Positions 7,206 through 57,523 of a DNA stretch of 64,000 bases are shown here, one piece after another; positions within the stretch are counted from its first letter, which is position 1; each line of letters begins with the position of its first letter. This stretch comes from a virus. The notes below the pieces were generated by a model that made no database searches, was not told where the DNA came from, and saw nothing but the letters and a program-made list of their open reading frames with translations. The stretch lies in IMG/VR virus record IMGVR_UViG_3300037586_005524, positions 19,221 through 83,220 of that record; one strand, written 5' to 3'. A program made the translations under genes and the position numbers.

Positions 7206-10200
7206 TTAACAGAGTGCGTCTGTCCCTAGCACATCATAAGGGTCCCAAATCTTAGTGTCTAGACCATGAGTTACTGCAATTTGGCGGTTCCAGTTGCCTT
7301 CCATGAAGGCCACATCGAGATCGTCGATATCGCCCCCGGCAGCCACGTACTTCTCCCCGATCTGTGCGATCTCGGCTGGCGACAGGCCACTCTCGGTTAT
7401 TAAAGTGCCGGCGGGCGCTGTTAGCAGACCTGTTATATGTAATTCCACACCTCCACGGTTTCGGTTTGGGAGCGGCTTGCCGTCGAACCATTCACCGCCG
7501 GCGTCTTCAGCATTGCGATCAACCCACTGAATAGTTACAATATCCTGTAAATTATTTTGAGTTATGAACTCCTCGATGCTTTTCTTTATTGACCCGGCGA
7601 GATAGTTGAGTTCTCCACAACTACCATGGTCAACTGAAAATGCCCAGCCGCTGCCCGCGCTGGTGGTGTTTTCGCCGTAAACCCAGGAACTCCCCATATC
7701 TTTGACTGCAATCTTTGTAGATGTACTTCCATGCACGTTTGAGTCAGGATCATCTTTTTTCCATTTAATATAACCAAGGGTTTTATCACAAGTTGCCTCG
7801 TAAAAATGTTTTGGCCCATCTGGCTGGCCTACTACAAATGACAGAGTATTTCCGTCCAGGAAGTTCGGGCGGAAATACTCTCGTGTTTGAGCGCTCGGGT
7901 GATGCCAGTTTCCTTTACAGTTTGTACCCTCGTAATCTTCGTTAGTGTACGGGAACTTAATAACCCATGCCACCACAGGGCTGTCCTTAGTAATTTCTTC
8001 AAGCTTTTTCTGAATTTCTAGTTTTTTATCTCCTTTTTCAAATATAGAAACCTCTTCGCCGAGGAATGTTACCCTACTAAGCACTGGTTCCCACGTATCA
8101 CAGGCCTCATCGATACACCACTGGAAGTTCGACAAGCTTGGCAAATATGACGGTCCGGGGATTGTCTGCTGGCCGCCGGCGCTCAACACATCATTATAGA
8201 AGCCCTCAAGTATAAGAATTTGTTTTCTTGCTAATTCAAAGGTGGCCTTATTGTCGCATAAATCAACCAAGGTGTCTGAGACAGGGAAGGGCGAAGAATT
8301 GACACTTTCACAATTAAAATATAAAATATCTAAAAATCCCTGGCTTGAGCCTGGCAGAATCATGCTGTCTGCCACCCAAGCATTATTTATATAATAATCT
8401 TCGTTTTTTGTTAAATCGCTTATTACTCTTTTATATTTCTCAATATAATCAAATGCATGTCCTTCGACTTCTATGAGCGTATCATAATATTCTCTTAAAG
8501 TAGAAAATATTACTTCTAAGTTCATATCTGATGTCGCTTCTCCGGCTTTTTCTGCAGCTATCAGAGTATCAAATAACGCTGTGTCTGAAAACTTTCTATA
8601 TTGGTAGGCCCAATCGAACGACGCCCCGGGGTTGTCCCGAGGGAAAGCAGTTGAGTTAGAATTCCTCGCCTTATATTTTTGGCGGAGAATCCAATTGCGG
8701 TCATCTTCCATTATATTATAAGATTTCATCAACATGTCAAACATTTTTTCATCCGCCGTATATTCTTCTTTAGAAATTGTTGGATCTTCATCGACTGCGC
8801 TGTCGCATGCTTTAACCTCGGCGGCTTTCAATTGGTCAGGTGCTTTATTCCCGAACCAAATACCGCTCATTGTGTCGCCTAAATACTTTTCTAACATGCA
8901 CATAGTAAATCCTGCAGGGGTCCATGGGGTCATGAAAAATGGATTACATTTTTTCCATCCTGGATCAGTGGCTTGAACCATACCTTTCATAATACCAAGC
9001 GGAGTCATGGCAAAAATTTGAGAATAGCTTGGTGGGCTCCCAAGCATTAAAGTTTGAAATTTGTTCCACCAGCTATCCTCTCCTGTGTCTTCTGTTTGAC
9101 TGGTTTGTTCTTGACTGGCGGCTTCGGCGCCTCCTTTCAATGGATCCGCCGCTTGTGTATTAGAATAGAATAGAGATCTTAACATTCCTTTTGTTTCAGG
9201 AAACATGCCACCTTTTAATTCTGTTTCAGTGTCATAAACAGGAAGGCCGTTGCTGTCTTTATTGCCCGTGTCATATTCAGCCTGTGTTGTTTTCGTATAT
9301 TCATCTAGTTCGAAAGTCTGCATAAGAACATATAATGAAATCAATGTTTTATAATTATCAATCGGAAATATTCTTCCAAAAAGTTTTTCAAAATCACTTG
9401 TTTCTGTCATTAAACCAAGAAGCTTGTTAAGAGGGAATTCATCTTCAATTGAATCTTGATAAGAAAAATATCCCAAAGGCACTGCTTTTGTGTCCTGGGC
9501 CAACTTCACGAATCCGTCTGCAATAGTTTTTGCATCTTGGTCTGATTTTCCTTGTTCCTTCGCCTGGCTTTCATAAAAACTATGCAGTGCGCCTGTTTCT
9601 GCAAAATTAAGACCACCAACAGGGAGTTCAACCTCCATTAATGGTATTTCAATTATGGGCGGTGATATGTCGGCGCCTTCTTTTAAAGTTGTTAAAGCGC
9701 TTTCATACTCAACGAACATATATGTTCCAGTGTCAAGCTCTGCTTTTCTAAGCTTTTCATATAAAATATAAGCTTTTTTATTCAACAAATTTGGGCCTTC
9801 AATGGGCCCATTTATACTTGTATTAAAGGGCAGTAAAAGTTTATCAAGGTCGATCTTTACAGTCTTGTTAGTGTCGTCTGAGTTAAGTTTCCTTTTTACA
9901 GGTTCTTTTTCCAAACCCAGATAGATGGTATCGCCGGTGGAGGGATCGATCTGGATCGCCGGCGGGCCAACGCCGGAATATACAGGGGCATAATCATATC
10001 TAAGTGGCAGGACATAAACCAATCTTAAGCCATACATCCATGGATCAAAATAATTTGTATGTGGCTCGCTAGCTTGGACAGAATTTTTATATTTTGCTAC
10101 ACCAAAACTATCGGCCGTCATTGCTTCCCGCCATTGGTTTATATTAATATAAGCACCTGGCTTTTCATCAAGATTGTCAGGAGTGTGCCAAATATTTCCA

Positions 10201-13200
10201 AATTCAAGAGGGAGGTCATTGTGAACAGAAGGGTCGAGTTCAAAAGCCTTAGAATTCATAACATCATCATATTCGGACTGGGCCCTGGTCTTGACGTGGG
10301 CGGACCAGTGGTCTTTGACGCACTGGGCATCGCATGCGGTGCCGATGGTATACATTCCATACCATTTTTTATATTCGTCGTATACCAACGCCATGGCGGG
10401 AGTGAGCTGCTCTTTGAGGTTGTTGTCGGGGTAGTTGGGGTGGGCCGGCGTCTCAATCTCGCCTGGTGACATGCCGGCATAAGGGAACGCGAGCCAGCCC
10501 ATGATTGTGGTAAGTTTGCTCAGGGCAATTGCTTTTTTTTCATCAAGACTTGTTGGTGTTATTTTTATTATGGGATCTTCTATCTTTGTGTGTTGGTGCG
10601 CACGGATATAAGGTTGCAATATAAAACCGCCATTTGGGCCTATTTTTGAAATAGCAGAGAGAGTAGATGCAACGGTATCTGTACCTAGGTATTCAATGTC
10701 GACGTAGCGATTTGTGCCGGCGTCTCCGTGGCCGGTGAAGAAGGCGTTGATTATAGAGAGGGGCGCCGACATTCCCCCGAAAGCGGCATCAAACTCCAAC
10801 CACTCGCCCCCGTACCACGTGTCGGTAATGTATGCCTTGGCATTGGTGCGGTACCTGTTCATGAAATGTGAGTATAATCTTGGTTTGGTTAGGAAATGAG
10901 GATTTGGAGGTTGCCAGGCGTCGGAATCTTTATTCGTGTTATAATTTGGATCTATTTCGGCTATCTGCGGCATTAAATTAAAAATATTATCGTTGGGATC
11001 TGGGGATTGAACGTCCCCAACAAAGAAATCGTCAGTATTGTCCGACCCGCCAAAAAAGCTTTTCTCTTGACCCTCCCTGTATCCATAATCTCTATCCAGG
11101 TGGCGCCAAAGAAAAGAAGACAAAAAAGAATGTTTCCAACTTTTTATATCTATATCTAATCTAGCTTCAAACTCTTTTTCCATAAAATCGCTAACTGAGA
11201 TTATTTGTTCTTTGAGCAAATATTTTATACCACTTAAACTATAAGGATTGCGATCATATTCATATGGTTCCTCAGTTAGCGGATCTAATAATTTATATCC
11301 TCGTTTAGTTGCTTCCTTTATTTTTGCCCTTAATATCTTGTTGGCATAATAAACAACATGTGATTGGAACTTTGGCTCAAAATCGGCGCCATCTTTAGGA
11401 GCTATTACTTTTGTTGCCGGTTCATCGATAAATACATTTCTACTAAAGGGCCATGGCGTGCCACCAATTGGATTACTTATACGCTGTGGCCCAGCTTTTT
11501 CGTTAGGTGTCTGAAAATTTTCTTTTTCATCTCCAGTTGTGGTCTTGAACGTTTTTTGATAATCTAACATAGCCAGTTCATGTACCATATTAGAAACAAT
11601 AAGATTTATAATTGTTTCTGATTTGAGCACATCTTTTACTTTGAACATGGTAGAAACAGGCAAAAGACGGAGAAAAGTTTCAACAGTATATAAACGAGCT
11701 AATATATAAATTATACCTTCTGCTATTGAGCGCGAAAGATTGGGAGTGTCATTATCTATATCTGGTTCTTCTTCGCACTCAAGGGCCTCATTTCTTTCGC
11801 GAATATTTTGTTTTAGTTCTTCTATTTTTAAAAGAGAAACCTGTTTTATATCACACAGATCATCGGCGGGGAATATTTCTCTAGGAAAAAGGCCGGCAAA
11901 AAACTTTCTAAACATTTCTTTACCATCAGGATGAAAGGTTGGAGATCTCCGAAATGCATCAAGCAAATGATTTCCTAAATCTCGTGTTATAATATTAAAC
12001 ATTTTTTCTAAGCTTTTCTCCGTATCTTGCCCAAAATACATCCCGGGATAGAACTTTTTATTTAATACATTAAAAAATTCTTGTTCTAGCGGAGAATGGA
12101 ACCAATTATCTGAAGCGAGGGCTGCTTCGTCGATGCCAGACTGTTTGGCCTGCTCTGTTGGGCTCATCGCCCACCAGCCGCGTTTTATTTTTCCTTCTTT
12201 TATTTTTGCAGCGTTTTCAGTATATAAATATAAATATTTTCTTATTTGAGCTTCAAGATTATCAAACCATGGCGCGCCATTGTGTAAAATATTATAAAAA
12301 AAGAACCGATCTTTACCTACCCAATAGTCAGTTTCAATTATTTGTTTTCCGGGGTCAGCAACAGAAAGATAATATTCTAGCTTATCGTCAGTCGCGTACA
12401 CGGCGAGAGGGTTGGATGGATCGCTCCAGAGGAATCTTCGCTTTGGACTTTTTAATATAAAATTACTAAGGAGGTTATCAATGCTATAACCCGGGAGCCA
12501 TTGGAAAGGGGCGTTAAATGATTCTCGTATTATTGGTAAAAGGGCGCGGTCTGGTATATTTCCTGGGGTTTGCTTTTGGTTTTGCCAGGGTGTGTCGGAT
12601 TCGAAATTCGTGAGGCCGTCAAGTGGCGGAAAGCCAGATGGGTAGCCTGTTAGAAGTTTATTATGAAATATAAATATTTCACTTTTAAACCCAGGCTCAA
12701 TTGTTCTTAAATTTTGATCAATTAATGTATTGTTTATCAGATTCGTTGGATAGATGTCATGTGGAATTCTATCCGGGTTGCCACAATCATCTGCAGCTAG
12801 GGGCGACTCTGGATTGTACGCTTTGTCAAGTAAATTAAGAAGCTTTTCTATCCTGTCAAGTTTTGCTCTGTTGCAAACATTTTCAACTTGTTCTTTTGTT
12901 GCATGGCCATCCAATAACTCTCCGCAAAGTTCATGCACGTATGGTGGGATTTCACATTCACTATAAAGCTGCGTTGGTAATTTTTTTTGTATCTCTTCAC
13001 AATATGCAGGATCAATAACGCCTTCAAAACTCTTATGAAAAAATTCCTTAATCTTTTTATAAGAAAGAGTTTCATCATTCCCTTTTAATTGAGAATAGAG
13101 ATTTTCAAATGATGTCATTAATAAATTTTTAATAATCTTTGATACAGTGAGTGTCGCCTCGCCATTGTTAAAAAGTGCACAAAGTTCTGCTTGCGAAAGC

Positions 13201-16200
13201 ATGCTTTCCAAGGCTTCCATTAGGCCTAAAATATTATTAGCTAGATCAGGCTCTGTTAAGTCAACTCCTTGGGCGCTAAGTTTTTTGGCCAAATTTCTTG
13301 CGGCGGCGCCCGGTGTTAAATCCATTAAATCATCAAAACTTGCTTTTCCAGGAATGCGATTTTTATTTCCCGGGTCTTTCGGGTCAAGGCCATCCCAGAG
13401 AAAATTCTTGAGGGCTTGGCACGCTAGAATAACTTCATTTAAGGTTTTCTTAACAAAATATAATATTGCTGCGTGAGCTATTTGTGCACCAATGGCGCGC
13501 ATCACTTCATCTGCCTGTGAGCCAAATGTGGTGGTCTTGTCTCTCGGGCGTTCTACTGCTTCTTCTTCTTTGTATTTCCGCTGCCGTTTTGCTTCATCTT
13601 CTTTTTTGGCCACTTCTTCTGGGGTTGGATTAACTGATTTTCTTATGGGATCGACGATTAAAGATTGAATTAAGTCAATAGCATTCGCACTATAACTTAT
13701 TATATTTCTGCAAAGTTCCTTTTTAAAATTGGGATCAGTCATTTTCATTATTGATTTAGATATATCGCTCGCAGCTTCTGCCACTTCAGCATTAGTTACG
13801 CCCCCATATGATGAGGGCATATATGTTCCAGCGCTTCCTTCTACATAATTTGCATATGACGAATCCATTTCAACTTGACGTCTTCGGCCGATGGTATTGG
13901 CGATTTGTGTGTCTATTGCTTTTACATCTTTCGAAAGATTCTTCTCTTCTGGTGAGCCAGGTGTCGCGTTTTTAAGCTCGGATTCAACAACAACCTTTCT
14001 AGCAGTCAGTTCTTCAATTTGTGTGTTATATCTGTCTCTTTCGGACATAAGTTGTTGAAATTCTGCGTTTTGTACTCTTTTTTGTGCTTTGATTGTCTTA
14101 GCAGCATTGGCTACTTCTGTTGCAACTTGTGCAGTAGATTCTGCAATTAATTTGGTCAAAGTGCCGTCTTTGCTTATATTATCAAAAAAGTTGTCAGCAC
14201 CCATTTCTTTCATTGCATATCTACAAGCTATTTCAAGCCACTCGTTTGGATCTAGCCAACATTTTATTGCTTGTTTTACTAAAGTTTTAACGTCTGCCTG
14301 ACTTAAGACTCTCGTGAAAATCGAACTTACGGGGTTGGGCCCATCTTCGATCCGTAATCGATCTCTTGTTTCAGGCAAAGTTCGCCAAAAATCATCGGCC
14401 ACGTTGCGTACCCACTTTCGACTATAATGGGTATAATTTTCAGCCCAAGTTGGATCATTGGTCATTGCATTCGCGCTCATTCTTGATTTGTGTGATGCAA
14501 GTGGTCCATGATTGTTAGTTATATACTGTTCCTGGGCCTTTTTGGTTCCTTCAGGATGATCATGAAGAAACTTATGAGTATGCTGAATAGGTCCAATATA
14601 TTTTTCAATAAAACTAAGAAGATCCAACTTTGTCCTGGCTGTTTCTGGGTCTATGTTAAAATCTACTTTAGGGTTGCGGCTGGCGCGGTCATCAACTACA
14701 TCAAAACTATTTCCTTTGTGCATTGTAGATATAAAATATAATGTTCTTTCTGTGTCGGTCACAGTTCTGCGTAGTGTGCGCCGGAAGTCTTGAAAAGCGG
14801 GCTCTAAAGAAGCATTGAAGCCTCCTCCAAGGATTCTTGAATGTTCAACTTCACCCAGTCTTTGTATGCCAATTAAGCCAGGGGCCGTGCTATCTTCATT
14901 AAACTTAGTTTTCGGAGCGTATTCCCGTACATATGCAATATCCCAATCGGGTGCTGGGCCGTGAATTTTTTCTAGTTTTTTGTTTGATTTAGTAATGCCA
15001 ATTTCAATTAAGTTCTTATCTTTGCCCCATGTTTCTGGATATTTTGCCCACTCTTCTTGTGCTTCTGAGGTTGGCCTATCCCCGGAGAAAAATCCACTGG
15101 GGACTCCTTGGCCGCCGCCGGCGGTGGCATCTTTTAATAAAGTTTTTAGTGCTTCTCTGAAGTCCTCTATCTGGTCTGCTTCGTTATCAAGCGATATCGT
15201 GTCCCAGCTGCCAAGTGCTGTTCCTTTTGGCGCCGGAGTTGGGCCAATTTCAAGTGGCGGTATAGACTCCTTTTGGGCTTGCTGATATACCTTTAATGTT
15301 TTTGCTATTTCATCAAGATCGTCATCGATTGATCCAACTTTCATAATTATTGCCCTATCAGGCGCTAAAACTTCTAGATTGGCACCAGGATCCGCGTCCT
15401 GAAGAAGGAGCAGTGTGGCTGGTTTACTTATCCCAATAAGAAAAGTTAAGCCTGGGTTGAACATACTTTGGTTGTCTTCTATGTCCTCTATTTCGGCATT
15501 AATAGAAGCCAATTCAGCTTCTTGGAGACTATCTGGTGGCGGTGGCTGCGGTATTGCGTCTCTTTGTGCTTTAAGTTCTGCAAGTTTTTGTTTGTCTGCA
15601 GGCGCGTGAGCATCCTTTCTAGTTTCAATTGTATAGCCCCCAAATTCAACATAACCAGCTTTGATAAACTCTTCAACTTTGGGCCCAATCAAATTATAAT
15701 AATCTTCTCGGTTTGTTTGTCCTGGGCCAGTAATGGCGCCTTTGTGGGCTATATTAGCCTTGACAAATCTTCTACCCAACAATTCCAACGCAAGAGGAAG
15801 TGAAGCTTTAACCATATCGAACCAGGTTTCATACCCAATTTCAACACTGCCTTGGGCGAATTGTGCGATTGGATGTAAATTTTTATATGATCTATAATCA
15901 AATGTATAATAGTACCAATCACTATCTTCTAATAATTCAACAAATCCAAATGGCTTATCTTCTAACCCATCAGCCCCAACTGGTTCGACATCATGGATAT
16001 CAATAGCATGCTGTGTTGCTAAGTGTATAAAACTTTCTGGTACTAGTGCTTTGGTGCGTATATTTGAGTCGACTGTGACACTCTGCGGTGCTGGCGAGGC
16101 CTGCGTCATGGCGTAGAGACGGTCGCCGCCGATGATCGGTCCGCGCTTGGCGTCGTCTTCGTCCGCGGTGTAGAGATCCACCATTGCGTCGAATGGGTTG

Positions 16201-16328
16201 GTGGCGCCCTTTTTACCAAAGGTTTCCGCCGCGCCCTCACCAGTCCATAAATCATCGGTAGACCACTTTTCTTTAATTAGATCAATAACTTCTTGATATC
16301 TTTTGCTGCCGAAATAGCCTTCTTTCAC
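7206..16328 (-). CDS. Giant virion/baseplate-region protein of unknown function (3040 aa)
   Basis: An uninterrupted 3040-codon frame, about one seventh of the window. It begins with GTG preceded by TAGGAGAAAGAA, a strong ribosome site. I recognise no catalytic motif. The sequence is mostly acidic and polar with many Trp and Tyr, a coiled-coil-like stretch near residues 755-830 (KVVVESELK...DTQIANTIGRRRQVE) and a Cys-containing segment near residues 1130-1180. It sits between the putative hub/spike genes and the gp25/gp6 genes, so a baseplate or tail structural role is the natural inference. A tape-measure role is less likely because long regular helices are not evident. Codon use is patchy, with GC-rich blocks inside an AT-rich gene. 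Confidence 0.75.
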   Translation of the reverse strand: MKEGYFGSKRYQEVIDLIKEKWSTDDLWTGEGAAETFGKKGATNPFDAMVDLYTADEDDAKRGPIIGGDRLYAMTQASPAPQSVTVDSNIRTKALVPESFIHLATQHAIDIHDVEPVGADGLEDKPFGFVELLEDSDWYYYTFDYRSYKNLHPIAQFAQGSVEIGYETWFDMVKASLPLALELLGRRFVKANIAHKGAITGPGQTNREDYYNLIGPKVEEFIKAGYVEFGGYTIETRKDAHAPADKQKLAELKAQRDAIPQPPPPDSLQEAELASINAEIEDIEDNQSMFNPGLTFLIGISKPATLLLLQDADPGANLEVLAPDRAIIMKVGSIDDDLDEIAKTLKVYQQAQKESIPPLEIGPTPAPKGTALGSWDTISLDNEADQIEDFREALKTLLKDATAGGGQGVPSGFFSGDRPTSEAQEEWAKYPETWGKDKNLIEIGITKSNKKLEKIHGPAPDWDIAYVREYAPKTKFNEDSTAPGLIGIQRLGEVEHSRILGGGFNASLEPAFQDFRRTLRRTVTDTERTLYFISTMHKGNSFDVVDDRASRNPKVDFNIDPETARTKLDLLSFIEKYIGPIQHTHKFLHDHPEGTKKAQEQYITNNHGPLASHKSRMSANAMTNDPTWAENYTHYSRKWVRNVADDFWRTLPETRDRLRIEDGPNPVSSIFTRVLSQADVKTLVKQAIKCWLDPNEWLEIACRYAMKEMGADNFFDNISKDGTLTKLIAESTAQVATEVANAAKTIKAQKRVQNAEFQQLMSERDRYNTQIEELTARKVVVESELKNATPGSPEEKNLSKDVKAIDTQIANTIGRRRQVEMDSSYANYVEGSAGTYMPSSYGGVTNAEVAEAASDISKSIMKMTDPNFKKELCRNIISYSANAIDLIQSLIVDPIRKSVNPTPEEVAKKEDEAKRQRKYKEEEAVERPRDKTTTFGSQADEVMRAIGAQIAHAAILYFVKKTLNEVILACQALKNFLWDGLDPKDPGNKNRIPGKASFDDLMDLTPGAAARNLAKKLSAQGVDLTEPDLANNILGLMEALESMLSQAELCALFNNGEATLTVSKIIKNLLMTSFENLYSQLKGNDETLSYKKIKEFFHKSFEGVIDPAYCEEIQKKLPTQLYSECEIPPYVHELCGELLDGHATKEQVENVCNRAKLDRIEKLLNLLDKAYNPESPLAADDCGNPDRIPHDIYPTNLINNTLIDQNLRTIEPGFKSEIFIFHNKLLTGYPSGFPPLDGLTNFESDTPWQNQKQTPGNIPDRALLPIIRESFNAPFQWLPGYSIDNLLSNFILKSPKRRFLWSDPSNPLAVYATDDKLEYYLSVADPGKQIIETDYWVGKDRFFFYNILHNGAPWFDNLEAQIRKYLYLYTENAAKIKEGKIKRGWWAMSPTEQAKQSGIDEAALASDNWFHSPLEQEFFNVLNKKFYPGMYFGQDTEKSLEKMFNIITRDLGNHLLDAFRRSPTFHPDGKEMFRKFFAGLFPREIFPADDLCDIKQVSLLKIEELKQNIRERNEALECEEEPDIDNDTPNLSRSIAEGIIYILARLYTVETFLRLLPVSTMFKVKDVLKSETIINLIVSNMVHELAMLDYQKTFKTTTGDEKENFQTPNEKAGPQRISNPIGGTPWPFSRNVFIDEPATKVIAPKDGADFEPKFQSHVVYYANKILRAKIKEATKRGYKLLDPLTEEPYEYDRNPYSLSGIKYLLKEQIISVSDFMEKEFEARLDIDIKSWKHSFLSSFLWRHLDRDYGYREGQEKSFFGGSDNTDDFFVGDVQSPDPNDNIFNLMPQIAEIDPNYNTNKDSDAWQPPNPHFLTKPRLYSHFMNRYRTNAKAYITDTWYGGEWLEFDAAFGGMSAPLSIINAFFTGHGDAGTNRYVDIEYLGTDTVASTLSAISKIGPNGGFILQPYIRAHQHTKIEDPIIKITPTSLDEKKAIALSKLTTIMGWLAFPYAGMSPGEIETPAHPNYPDNNLKEQLTPAMALVYDEYKKWYGMYTIGTACDAQCVKDHWSAHVKTRAQSEYDDVMNSKAFELDPSVHNDLPLEFGNIWHTPDNLDEKPGAYININQWREAMTADSFGVAKYKNSVQASEPHTNYFDPWMYGLRLVYVLPLRYDYAPVYSGVGPPAIQIDPSTGDTIYLGLEKEPVKRKLNSDDTNKTVKIDLDKLLLPFNTSINGPIEGPNLLNKKAYILYEKLRKAELDTGTYMFVEYESALTTLKEGADISPPIIEIPLMEVELPVGGLNFAETGALHSFYESQAKEQGKSDQDAKTIADGFVKLAQDTKAVPLGYFSYQDSIEDEFPLNKLLGLMTETSDFEKLFGRIFPIDNYKTLISLYVLMQTFELDEYTKTTQAEYDTGNKDSNGLPVYDTETELKGGMFPETKGMLRSLFYSNTQAADPLKGGAEAASQEQTSQTEDTGEDSWWNKFQTLMLGSPPSYSQIFAMTPLGIMKGMVQATDPGWKKCNPFFMTPWTPAGFTMCMLEKYLGDTMSGIWFGNKAPDQLKAAEVKACDSAVDEDPTISKEEYTADEKMFDMLMKSYNIMEDDRNWILRQKYKARNSNSTAFPRDNPGASFDWAYQYRKFSDTALFDTLIAAEKAGEATSDMNLEVIFSTLREYYDTLIEVEGHAFDYIEKYKRVISDLTKNEDYYINNAWVADSMILPGSSQGFLDILYFNCESVNSSPFPVSDTLVDLCDNKATFELARKQILILEGFYNDVLSAGGQQTIPGPSYLPSLSNFQWCIDEACDTWEPVLSRVTFLGEEVSIFEKGDKKLEIQKKLEEITKDSPVVAWVIKFPYTNEDYEGTNCKGNWHHPSAQTREYFRPNFLDGNTLSFVVGQPDGPKHFYEATCDKTLGYIKWKKDDPDSNVHGSTSTKIAVKDMGSSWVYGENTTSAGSGWAFSVDHGSCGELNYLAGSIKKSIEEFITQNNLQDIVTIQWVDRNAEDAGGEWFDGKPLPNRNRGGVELHITGLLTAPAGTLITESGLSPAEIAQIGEKYVAAGGDIDDLDVAFMEGNWNRQIAVTHGLDTKIWDPYDVLGTDALC

Positions 16329-55401: not shown

Positions 55402-56466
55402 TTACATTCCACCTAATAAAGTTAAGGCAATCAGACCAGGAAGTTCGCTTCTAACATATACACCAGAAAATAAAGTATCTGCTCTTCCACCTACATATGA
55501 AAAAGCGGCTTCTAATCGATTACTAACTGCTGGATCGTCAGCCATTTCTGGGGTGGCAATTAAAAGAAGTGCTCCTGTTTTTGATTTGGTTGCTGGTGTT
55601 GGGCAAGGCGAAGATTTTAAACAGCCCTGAAATATCAAAGAACCTAAATCTGTTTTTGAAGGATCCCTTACAACAGTGCTGCCTAATAATATTCTACCTG
55701 GGGTGTTAAGACATCTTTCTAAATCTTTCGAATCAAAAGCTTGGATTGGCGAAGGTTCGTTCGCCAATTTTAGAATTTGTGTTAATAGTTTTGCAAAATT
55801 TTTATTTGCTGCAGGGTACATATTTAACATTCCAACTTTGCCACGTAATAATTGTAATTGTTTTTCATTATCAATTACAATACGTGTATGTTTATTTATG
55901 TCTCTCAATAACATTTCACAATTAGATTTAATTGTTGGATTTAAAAGTTCTTGTGACGATGGAGTACTAACAATATAGACAACTTTTCCACTAGCACCGC
56001 TAGAAGATAAATAACGACTAATGGCTTTATGTAAAACATGACTAGCACTTCCTGTTCCCCCGCCTGCCCCTGCACATACAAATACCCAATCGACTTTACC
56101 AACGCGAGTTCGAAGAGCGTCTTCAACTAATGCACTATTATTTGCTAAAATTTCTTTTCCCAATTTAACATCTTTGCCAACACCATCTGCTCCTGGGATT
56201 AAAATAAAATTCTCTGGATTGACTCCAGATGGTTGATCTTTTTCTGTTGTGTTCACAAGGAGCGTCTTGTTAAACCCAAGATCCATAAATGCTTTGGCTA
56301 ATTTACCGCCGCCGCCGCCAATACCAATAAAAGCACAATTAATTGCACTTGCAGCAGTATTTTCTTCTAGCATTTTTTCATCTATAGATGGCTCATCATC
56401 ATAAGCCTCTACGAAATCAAAATCATTTGGCGGGCTTTCTGGTAAGTCCCAATTTTCTTCACTCAT
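55402..56466 (-). CDS. Tubulin/FtsZ-superfamily GTPase
   Basis: 354 residues. After an acidic N-terminal tail, the nucleotide-binding fold begins with IGIGGGGGKLAKAF (residues 47-60, T1 loop), and GAGGGTGSA (residues 133-141) is the tubulin signature (GGGTGSG). The equivalent of the T7 catalytic loop NxDxxD is AFDSKD near residue 244: the two Asp are kept but Asn is replaced by Ala. LLGSTVVRD follows as in FtsZ. Shorter C-terminus than FtsZ. Phage tubulins (for example PhuZ, TubZ-like) form filaments that centre or move phage DNA. GGGAGA precedes the ATG; the tmRNA lies just upstream. Confidence 0.85.
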   Translation of the reverse strand: MSEENWDLPESPPNDFDFVEAYDDEPSIDEKMLEENTAASAINCAFIGIGGGGGKLAKAFMDLGFNKTLLVNTTEKDQPSGVNPENFILIPGADGVGKDVKLGKEILANNSALVEDALRTRVGKVDWVFVCAGAGGGTGSASHVLHKAISRYLSSSGASGKVVYIVSTPSSQELLNPTIKSNCEMLLRDINKHTRIVIDNEKQLQLLRGKVGMLNMYPAANKNFAKLLTQILKLANEPSPIQAFDSKDLERCLNTPGRILLGSTVVRDPSKTDLGSLIFQGCLKSSPCPTPATKSKTGALLLIATPEMADDPAVSNRLEAAFSYVGGRADTLFSGVYVRSELPGLIALTLLGGM

Positions 56467-56514: not shown

Positions 56515-56895
56515 TGGTGGAGGCGCGGGGAATCGAACCCCGGTCCAAAATAGATTAATTATTTTGTCATTCACAAGAATAGGCACATTCACCGCCGAAG
56601 TGCCAGCCACCTGATAAATCAGGGAATCCATTTACCAACTTAAGGTGTTGGCTACCAAATTTATATAGTTTCCTATATAATAAAAATCCGCTTGCGCGTA
56701 CCACCAGCTTTTTTTAAAACTGAAAACAATTAGTATTTGTTAAGAAAGTCACTAACAACTTCCGATTATGCAGCTAAGGCGTAATCAAATTCAACGTTAT
56801 CGTTGGCATTTATAAAGTTTAAGTATTTTTACTGTGATACTTACACAGTCTTGCACAAAACAATCTCCTTACTCTGTCGAAACCATTTCGCCCCC
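56515..56895 (-). ncRNA. ssrA: tmRNA (ssrA)
   Basis: A 381-nt tmRNA. Its 5' end GGGGGCG (56895-56889) pairs over seven positions with CGCCTCC at the 3' end, followed by a discriminator A and an encoded CCA (56517-56515). The T-arm reads GGTTCGATTCC and the 5' end has the usual AUGGUUUCGACA start. The tag frame is 56807-56766: codons give ANDNVEFDYALAA then TAA, ending in the ALAA degron that ClpXP and related proteases recognise. It would rescue stalled ribosomes and tag nascent chains. No smpB gene is visible in the window, so the host's SmpB is presumably used. The downstream neighbour is the tubulin-like gene. Confidence 0.95.
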
Positions 56896-57127
56896 ATACT
56901 TTTAAAGAACAAATTCTACGAAGGGTGTTAATTCTTCACACTAACAACGCTAGACTCCTTATAACTGGAAACGGTCTTTCTTTCAACCGTTATTTTACAT
57001 CCCCTTCAAGAGAGTCATTGAAGGTGTTCGTAGTACATTCAAATTCTAGTTTAGCACCTTCGTAGTCTAGAACTTTAACCTCATTTTTATTAACAACTAT
57101 AATGAACCACACTGGGCTCAAAATATA
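56896..57127 (-). other. 5' leader region between promoter and tmRNA
   Basis: About 230 bases between the predicted transcription start near 57127 and the tmRNA 5' end. It contains a small open frame (56990-57112), a 6-bp hairpin (56970-56975 with 56986-56991) and a long-range inverted repeat (56916-56927 with 57055-57065). It would be removed from mature tmRNA by processing. The remaining part has no other recognised signal. Confidence 0.5.
56990..57112 (-). CDS. Possible small leader ORF upstream of the tmRNA
   Basis: 40 codons from GTG 57112 to TAA 56990. The translation contains VWFIIVVNKNEV, KVLDYEGAKLEFECTT and NTFNDSLEGDVK, which looks like an ordinary beta-rich small protein. No ribosome-binding site can be seen, and the start would lie only about 15 bases from the predicted transcription start, so translation would be nearly leaderless. 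A TTG at 57121 is an alternative start. It may simply be a random open frame. Confidence 0.3.
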   Translation of the reverse strand: MWFIIVVNKNEVKVLDYEGAKLEFECTTNTFNDSLEGDVK

Positions 57128-57133
57128 TATATA

Positions 57134-57162
57134 ACTATAATCAATTATATACTAATTGTCAA
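57134..57162 (-). promoter_or_regulatory. Near-consensus sigma70-type promoter for the tmRNA leader
   Basis: On the minus strand, TTGACA at 57162-57157 is followed, after exactly 17 bases, by TATAGT at 57139-57134. The -35 box matches the consensus fully and the -10 box at five of six positions. The start would be near 57127. The -35 box lies inside the last codons of the Fis-like gene. It should drive the tmRNA and probably the tubulin-like gene as a host-polymerase promoter. Confidence 0.75.
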
Positions 57163-57523
57163 GCTTTTTAATATCATTTTCGAAAAAAGTTTCTGTATCA
57201 TACTTTTTAATTAAATTATTAAAGTTCTGCCTCCTCATTCCTAAAAATCTAGCTGCTTCTCTTTTAGTTTTACACGCTGAGAGGGCATATTTTAATACAG
57301 CATCTTGTACAATTTCTTTCATTGATTTCCAGATTGGTAGCCCATATGGCTTTCCACCAAAAACCTTCGAAGCCAATTCTAATTTAAGTCCGATCACTTC
57401 TTCTAATGACAGTCGATTTAACATGATTTCAAATTCTTCAGTTGATTTGTTTTCTTCACGAAGCTTTTTTATCAAACTGTACCGTTCATTTTTTCCTTTA
57501 ATTTTCTTTTTGTTCCAGGTCAT
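57152..57523 (-). CDS. Fis-type helix-turn-helix DNA-binding protein
   Basis: 123 residues. The C-terminal half (DAVLKYALSACKTKREAARFLGM then RRQNFNNLIKKYD) is the Fis/NtrC-type helix-turn-helix, with the A-R-F-LGM-RRQ turn. The N-terminal half is basic and helical (KKKIKGKNERYSLIKKLREEN). It probably binds DNA as a dimer and regulates phage or host promoters. Only weak AAGAAG lies before the ATG. The last codons contain the -35 box of the next promoter, which may give feedback control, though that is a guess. Confidence 0.78.
   Translation of the reverse strand: MTWNKKKIKGKNERYSLIKKLREENKSTEEFEIMLNRLSLEEVIGLKLELASKVFGGKPYGLPIWKSMKEIVQDAVLKYALSACKTKREAARFLGMRRQNFNNLIKKYDTETFFENDIKKLDN

Follow-up and report, generated by a model that had tools for sequence, protein, structure and literature searches.

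A phage tmRNA gene with a structured leader and an upstream helix-turn-helix gene in an uncultured marine virus and its relatives

The stretch of DNA analysed here (64,000 nucleotides, hereafter the window) comes from an 83-kb IMG/VR contig of an uncultured marine virus of bacteria, which has related contigs of up to 284 kb. On its minus strand, a gene for a Fis-like helix-turn-helix (HTH) protein, a sigma-70-type promoter that overlaps the last codons and the stop of this gene, a structured leader RNA, a one-piece tmRNA gene and a gene for a tubulin/FtsZ-like protein follow one another (Table 1).

Table 1. Features of the tmRNA locus, in window coordinates
Feature	Position	Strand	Basis or remark
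Tubulin/FtsZ-like protein gene, 354 aa, downstream of tmRNA	55402..56466	-	PF00091, PhuZ PHROG
One-piece tmRNA (ssrA)	56515..56895	-	ARAGORN and RF00023
Encoded CCA 3' end	56515..56517	-	window sequence
Tag reading frame, GCC AAC GAT AAC GTT GAA TTT GAT TAC GCC TTA GCT GCA TAA, for ANDNVEFDYALAA and stop	56766..56807	-	ARAGORN and sequence
tmRNA pseudoknot PK1, ACTGTG/CACAGT and TAAGTAT/ATACTTA	56820..56849	-	13 bp by script
GTTCTTTAAAA just before tmRNA	56900..56910	-	similar string there in about eight relatives
Structured leader RNA domain	56916..57065	-	11 distinct copies in viral contigs; shuffle helix tests
Leader P1	57065-57057/56924-56916	-	outer helix
Leader hairpin P3	57024-57018/57009-57003	-	CTTCA..GACTCTC.TGAAG
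Leader loop pairing	GACTC 57016-57012/GAGTC 56957-56953	-	
Leader P4	56946-56940/56932-56926	-	
Promoter TTGACA (57162-57157)-N17-TATAGT (57139-57134)	57134..57162	-	sequence
Fis-like HTH protein gene, 123 aa, upstream of tmRNA	57152..57523	-	HTH_29, HTH_8, 1fip

The tmRNA and its promoter

The sequence-only reading had proposed a full-length tmRNA of 381 nt with a seven-base-pair acceptor stem, an encoded CCA and a complete tag, and all of these are borne out. ARAGORN calls the tmRNA with the tag ANDNVEFDYALAA, and, over the same span, the RF00023 covariance model (score cut-off 47 bits) is matched as a whole, positions 1-374, with 120.7 bits and E=1.3e-46. The acceptor stem (GGGGGCG/CGCCTCC) contains the G3·U70 alanine identity pair, and the tag frame begins with an alanine codon and ends with the protease signal, followed by a stop. 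PK1 precedes the tag, and other members of the family pair likewise with different sequence. The window tmRNA is like the bacterial tmRNAs of RF00023 in the full-length match, the tRNA-like end with G3·U70, PK1, the ALAA end of the tag, and the CCA, which is encoded in most, not all, of the relatives. It differs from them in being phage-borne, in the length of its tag (13 residues), in the family-specific CTTGTGAATGAC within the 3' part of P2, and in the variable region after the tag; from the tag to P2, where PK2-PK4 would have their place, the window sequence aligns poorly to the model. The tag does differ from that of E. coli by N-V-E-F-D, as had been noticed, but this is not a plain extra core: where E. 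coli has AND-EN-YALAA, the window has AND-NVEFD-YALAA, in sum three residues more than the ten of E. coli.

The phage origin of the element is upheld by the viral record, by the phage baseplate genes and the T4-type late sigma factor in the window, and by dozens of viral contigs with this gene order, all of which makes it scarcely conceivable that the contig is bacterial; a PhoH-like protein in the window also resembles the PhoH-like proteins of large phages. Just as remote is the prospect that the tmRNA belongs to a permuted (two-piece) gene. The permuted-tmRNA model RF04321 does give 51.4 bits on the 5' half, but one-piece bacterial tmRNAs span 36-53 bits with the same model (a Halodesulfovibrio MAG scores 53.5, a Myxococcales MAG 48.7), so that this match is uninformative on permutation. 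The acceptor half lies downstream, only one tmRNA is found in the whole 83,220-base record, and a two-piece gene was rejected. Elsewhere in the window, positions 21181-48895 hold a long run of genes of surface-sugar type, including those for sugar-nucleotide enzymes, glycosyltransferases, aminotransferases and carbamoyltransferases, and a 3040-codon open reading frame with a GTG start (7206-16328, minus strand) adjoins the baseplate genes.

Both flanking proteins resemble known families from a distance. The tubulin/FtsZ-like protein matches PF00091 with 33.7 bits, just above the cut-off of 33, and is weakly PhuZ-like by its PHROG match (E=9e-5). The HTH protein matches HTH_29 (E=8e-4) and HTH_8, the Fis model (E=0.018), both under the Pfam cut-offs; as its HTH_8 score is 15.2 bits against a cut-off of 22, it is Fis-like only and not assigned to the Fis family. 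Its comparison with the Fis crystal sequence 1fip gives E=0.26, and a single-sequence structure prediction (pLDDT 60) was too poor for use. Relatives of either protein were absent from the phage record collection.

The TTGACA-N17-TATAGT promoter that had been read before the tmRNA is indeed present, but it lies about 240 nt upstream, with the structured leader, which that reading had overlooked, in between. Its conservation was assessed in 13 sequences with an ANDN-type tag and a separate HTH stop (the window included), with the expectation taken from shuffles: if up to one mismatch is allowed, 8 of the 13 have a promoter at the HTH stop (0.03 expected), and if up to two are allowed, 10 do (0.22 expected), at distances of about 40 to 300 nt from the tmRNA. 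The string GTTCTTTAAAA, just before the tmRNA, resembles a boxA antitermination signal, which we take as a lead only.

Conservation in related phages and a probable need for host factors

With the tubulin gene used as a lead, 34 related viral loci were collected, and in most of those with enough flank the tmRNA lies directly upstream of this gene. A DNA pattern built on the 3' part of the tmRNA, TTGTGAATGAC...GGACNNGGGTTCGA, matches at least 120 viral stretches; among the matches listed there are 94 unique full tmRNAs of 288-442 nt in viral contigs, 54 of which have an HTH homologue within 900 nt upstream. All seven acceptor pairs form in each of these 94, in 16 sequence combinations, and G3·U70 is unchanged in every one. 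Since the 5' end was set by best pairing, the count of seven out of seven is slightly favoured by construction, an effect that touches neither the invariance of the third pair nor the two-sided changes. An invariant G3·U70 together with acceptor changes on both strands is what one expects of a gene under selection for alanine charging, so that selection appears to keep the tmRNA of this family working.

This pattern bears on the view that the tmRNA is a passenger, or a decaying copy of a host gene acquired by chance. Such a view could draw on the variable length and pseudoknot region, on the one member whose 36-residue tag has no ALAA end, and on the tubulin-bearing relatives L021, L023, L025, L026 and L030, whose whole records, all of them fragments, contain no tmRNA, which suggests that the tmRNA may be dispensable. 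It is nevertheless very improbable in view of the compensated acceptor stem with its invariant third pair, which already disfavours it, of the tags that stay open and keep their LAA ends (87 of 95 unique tags of relatives among the matches listed), and of the conserved place and promoter. The aberrant tag, ANDVSLATPWFSLKDRTGYVPVQLLDEASEAVAYVN and stop, belongs to the tmRNA at L029:4557-4962, where the acceptor stem is intact; it may reflect decay, a sequence error or a new function. In the viral loci L199-L302 (e.g., L210, L275 and L289), whose examined sequence has no adjacent tubulin gene, there is a second group of tags, ANNNxHFExxRLAA.

Would such a tmRNA bring its own partner protein? No SmpB turned up in 19 related records (9 + 10), which include contigs of 284, 267 and 205 kb, whereas the same search was positive in 10 of 10 bacterial control genomes; the phage tmRNA, therefore, probably uses the SmpB of the host. 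As these records are fragments, SmpB could also sit on their missing parts. The hope that the tag would name one bacterial lineage as the host was not realized: the exact ANDNVEFDYALAA pattern has no match in the bacterial genomes searched. The nearest one-piece bacterial tag among the matches listed, in a set chosen by tag, is ANDNVEYALAA of two Myxococcales MAGs, which, by DNA pattern, occurs in 5 of the 284 genomes from their phylum. Within the set compared, a genome with this tag also gives the best bacterial blastn match. Because this set was picked by tag, the match is a lead on the host or donor and no more.

Phage tmRNAs as such are already known. According to one survey, 402 of 18,146 phage genomes carry a tmRNA, with rescue and the recycling of host proteins being discussed (PMC9004378), and huge phages carry both tmRNA and SmpB (Al-Shayeb et al. 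2020, PMC7162821). The window tmRNA is, like those of the huge phages and of Mar_Mega_1 (PMC9723777), a large-phage tmRNA, but the huge phages are reported with SmpB, which did not turn up in the 19 records of the present family. The annotated tmRNAs of Streptomyces and Mycobacterium phages (e.g., with the tag ANSNVASAYALAA) match the window tmRNA only over their last ~30-58 nt, and all matches of the family in phage records are confined to short 3'-end pieces. With the OM43 phage Melnitz (PMC9004378), the window shares a marine phage tmRNA, a structured RNA in the transcript and a place near an early promoter; the tmRNA of Melnitz, however, is a two-piece one with a glutamine riboswitch, whereas that of the window is in one piece and not permuted. 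Less ordinary here are the placement of the promoter over the HTH stop, the undescribed leader and, in a sister clade, the overlap of the HTH frame with the tmRNA. The family offers many related tmRNAs of phages in which the gene context is conserved, along with a candidate new structured RNA.

We consider it likely that a functional phage tmRNA is made from this locus and is charged and carried by host factors. The promoter that overlaps the HTH stop would drive a precursor of ~600 nt, with the structured leader followed by the tmRNA; host enzymes would trim the tmRNA 5' end at 56895, and the host alanyl-tRNA synthetase would charge the product via G3·U70. During infection, host SmpB would then bring it to ribosomes that have stalled on broken mRNAs, where it would add ANDNVEFDYALAA, and the LAA end would direct the tagged product to host proteases. 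As far as can be judged from sequence, both the conserved alanine identity and the LAA at the end of the tags agree with a use in rescuing ribosomes or tagging proteins. The apparent need for host SmpB would suit a main role in interference with the host instead of ribosome rescue for the phage, either by swamping SmpB or the host tmRNA or by tagging chosen host proteins for amino-acid recycling, and selective tagging of host proteins has been proposed for Melnitz (PMC9004378). Such a role is unlikely, however, as the sequence has no sign of selectivity and the tag retains an ordinary LAA end.

The structured leader RNA

The leader, ~150 nt in length, lies between the promoter and the tmRNA in six phages (the window, L012, L180, L009, L194 and L330), and five further copies are found away from a tmRNA (L323, L324, L326, L327 and L333); L325, a near-copy of L324, is on the same contig as the tmRNA locus L164. 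Pattern matching gives no phage more than one copy. Looser scans yielded one good copy, L333, whereas L331, L332 and L334-L339 were discarded as chance matches. Among the tmRNA leaders, the outer helix P1 keeps its position although both of its strands vary. Its strands are CTACGAAGG/CCTTCGTAG in the window and CCTATAGAGTGT/ACACTCTATAGG in L330, as well as TATAGGCTG/CAGCCTATA in L327 and ATGGAGCAA/TTGCTCCAT in L333. Copy by copy, P1 modestly beats its shuffles: 0-2 of 60 shuffles were as good in eight copies, and 7-10 of 60 in the other three. P4 is present in seven copies, with pairs such as TGTTAGT/ATTAACA, TGTTGGT/ACCAACA, TGTTGAT/ATCAACA and GCATTCT/AGAATGC. The hairpin P3 and the loop pairing hardly vary (L012 has one mismatch in this part), so that covariation is no test of them. 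Taken as a whole, the leader is probably pseudoknotted; its folding energy (z of -1.25) is by itself no proof of a fold. The leader is not a small gene, since L012, L180, L009 and L194 do not retain the open frame found in the window.

What could this RNA do? A conserved structured RNA between a promoter and a tmRNA suggests a riboswitch or another cis-acting switch of tmRNA expression, and the glutamine riboswitch that Melnitz carries with its tmRNA (PMC9004378) provides a precedent. This is quite possible, if not the explanation we favor. Most members of the tmRNA family have no leader, and the Rfam 15 families gave no relevant match to it even at E up to 5-10, the glutamine riboswitch included. 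Moreover, five phages carry the leader away from any tmRNA, mostly with T-rich stretches after it, and two of these have their tmRNA elsewhere: in G309 and G310, a leader-free tmRNA is found in one place and the leader element, followed by T-rich sequence, tens of kb away. These off-tmRNA copies suggest that the leader may be a non-coding RNA of its own; judging by its distribution, it is most likely a separate small RNA that shares a transcript with the tmRNA in some lineages, and not simply a tmRNA switch.

The HTH frame that enters the tmRNA

The HTH frame of 13 relatives runs on without a stop into the tmRNA, where it terminates after 33 or 39 nt, so that the C-terminus of the protein (FFE-GGETVSTEEE and stop, or similar) is encoded by the tmRNA's own 5' sequence. 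Specifically, L006 reads TCA TAT TTT GAA AAT up to the tmRNA start and GGG GGC GAA ACG GTT TCG ACA AAG AAA GAA TAA from there on. From the FF codons to the tmRNA, the linker measures 6, 9, 12 or 15 nt, a multiple of three in 13 of 13, and the codon boundary falls at the first base of the tmRNA in all of them, whereas the same linker in lineages with a separate HTH stop shows all three remainders. The overlap sequences form one clade in the HTH tree (support 97/92), a sister of the window lineage, and, accordingly, represent few independent events; the window's own phage has no such overlap.

RNase P generates the 5' ends of tmRNAs (PMC3985003), so that tmRNA maturation in the sister clade should leave the HTH message without a stop and ending on a whole codon, and we infer that this message would itself be a tmRNA substrate, with the tmRNA's own 5' maturation as the cut that makes it nonstop. 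The overlap thus gives a clear prediction, a self-made tmRNA substrate. On a further and more doubtful reading, which we offer tentatively, the tmRNA gene might be the hub of a feedback circuit: with the HTH stop inside the tmRNA, each transcript could serve as an intact message for the regulator or else as the source of a mature tmRNA, and the product of the message cut nonstop would be tagged by the same tmRNA and destroyed. In the window lineage, regulator and tmRNA would then be uncoupled by the promoter, with the tmRNA precursor instead carrying an undescribed small RNA that acts separately.

At L206, where the tmRNA 5' end is at 8163 on the minus strand and the phage tag is ANNTAHFESYALAA, the HTH frame enters the tmRNA by 56 nt, in what looks like a second, separate case.
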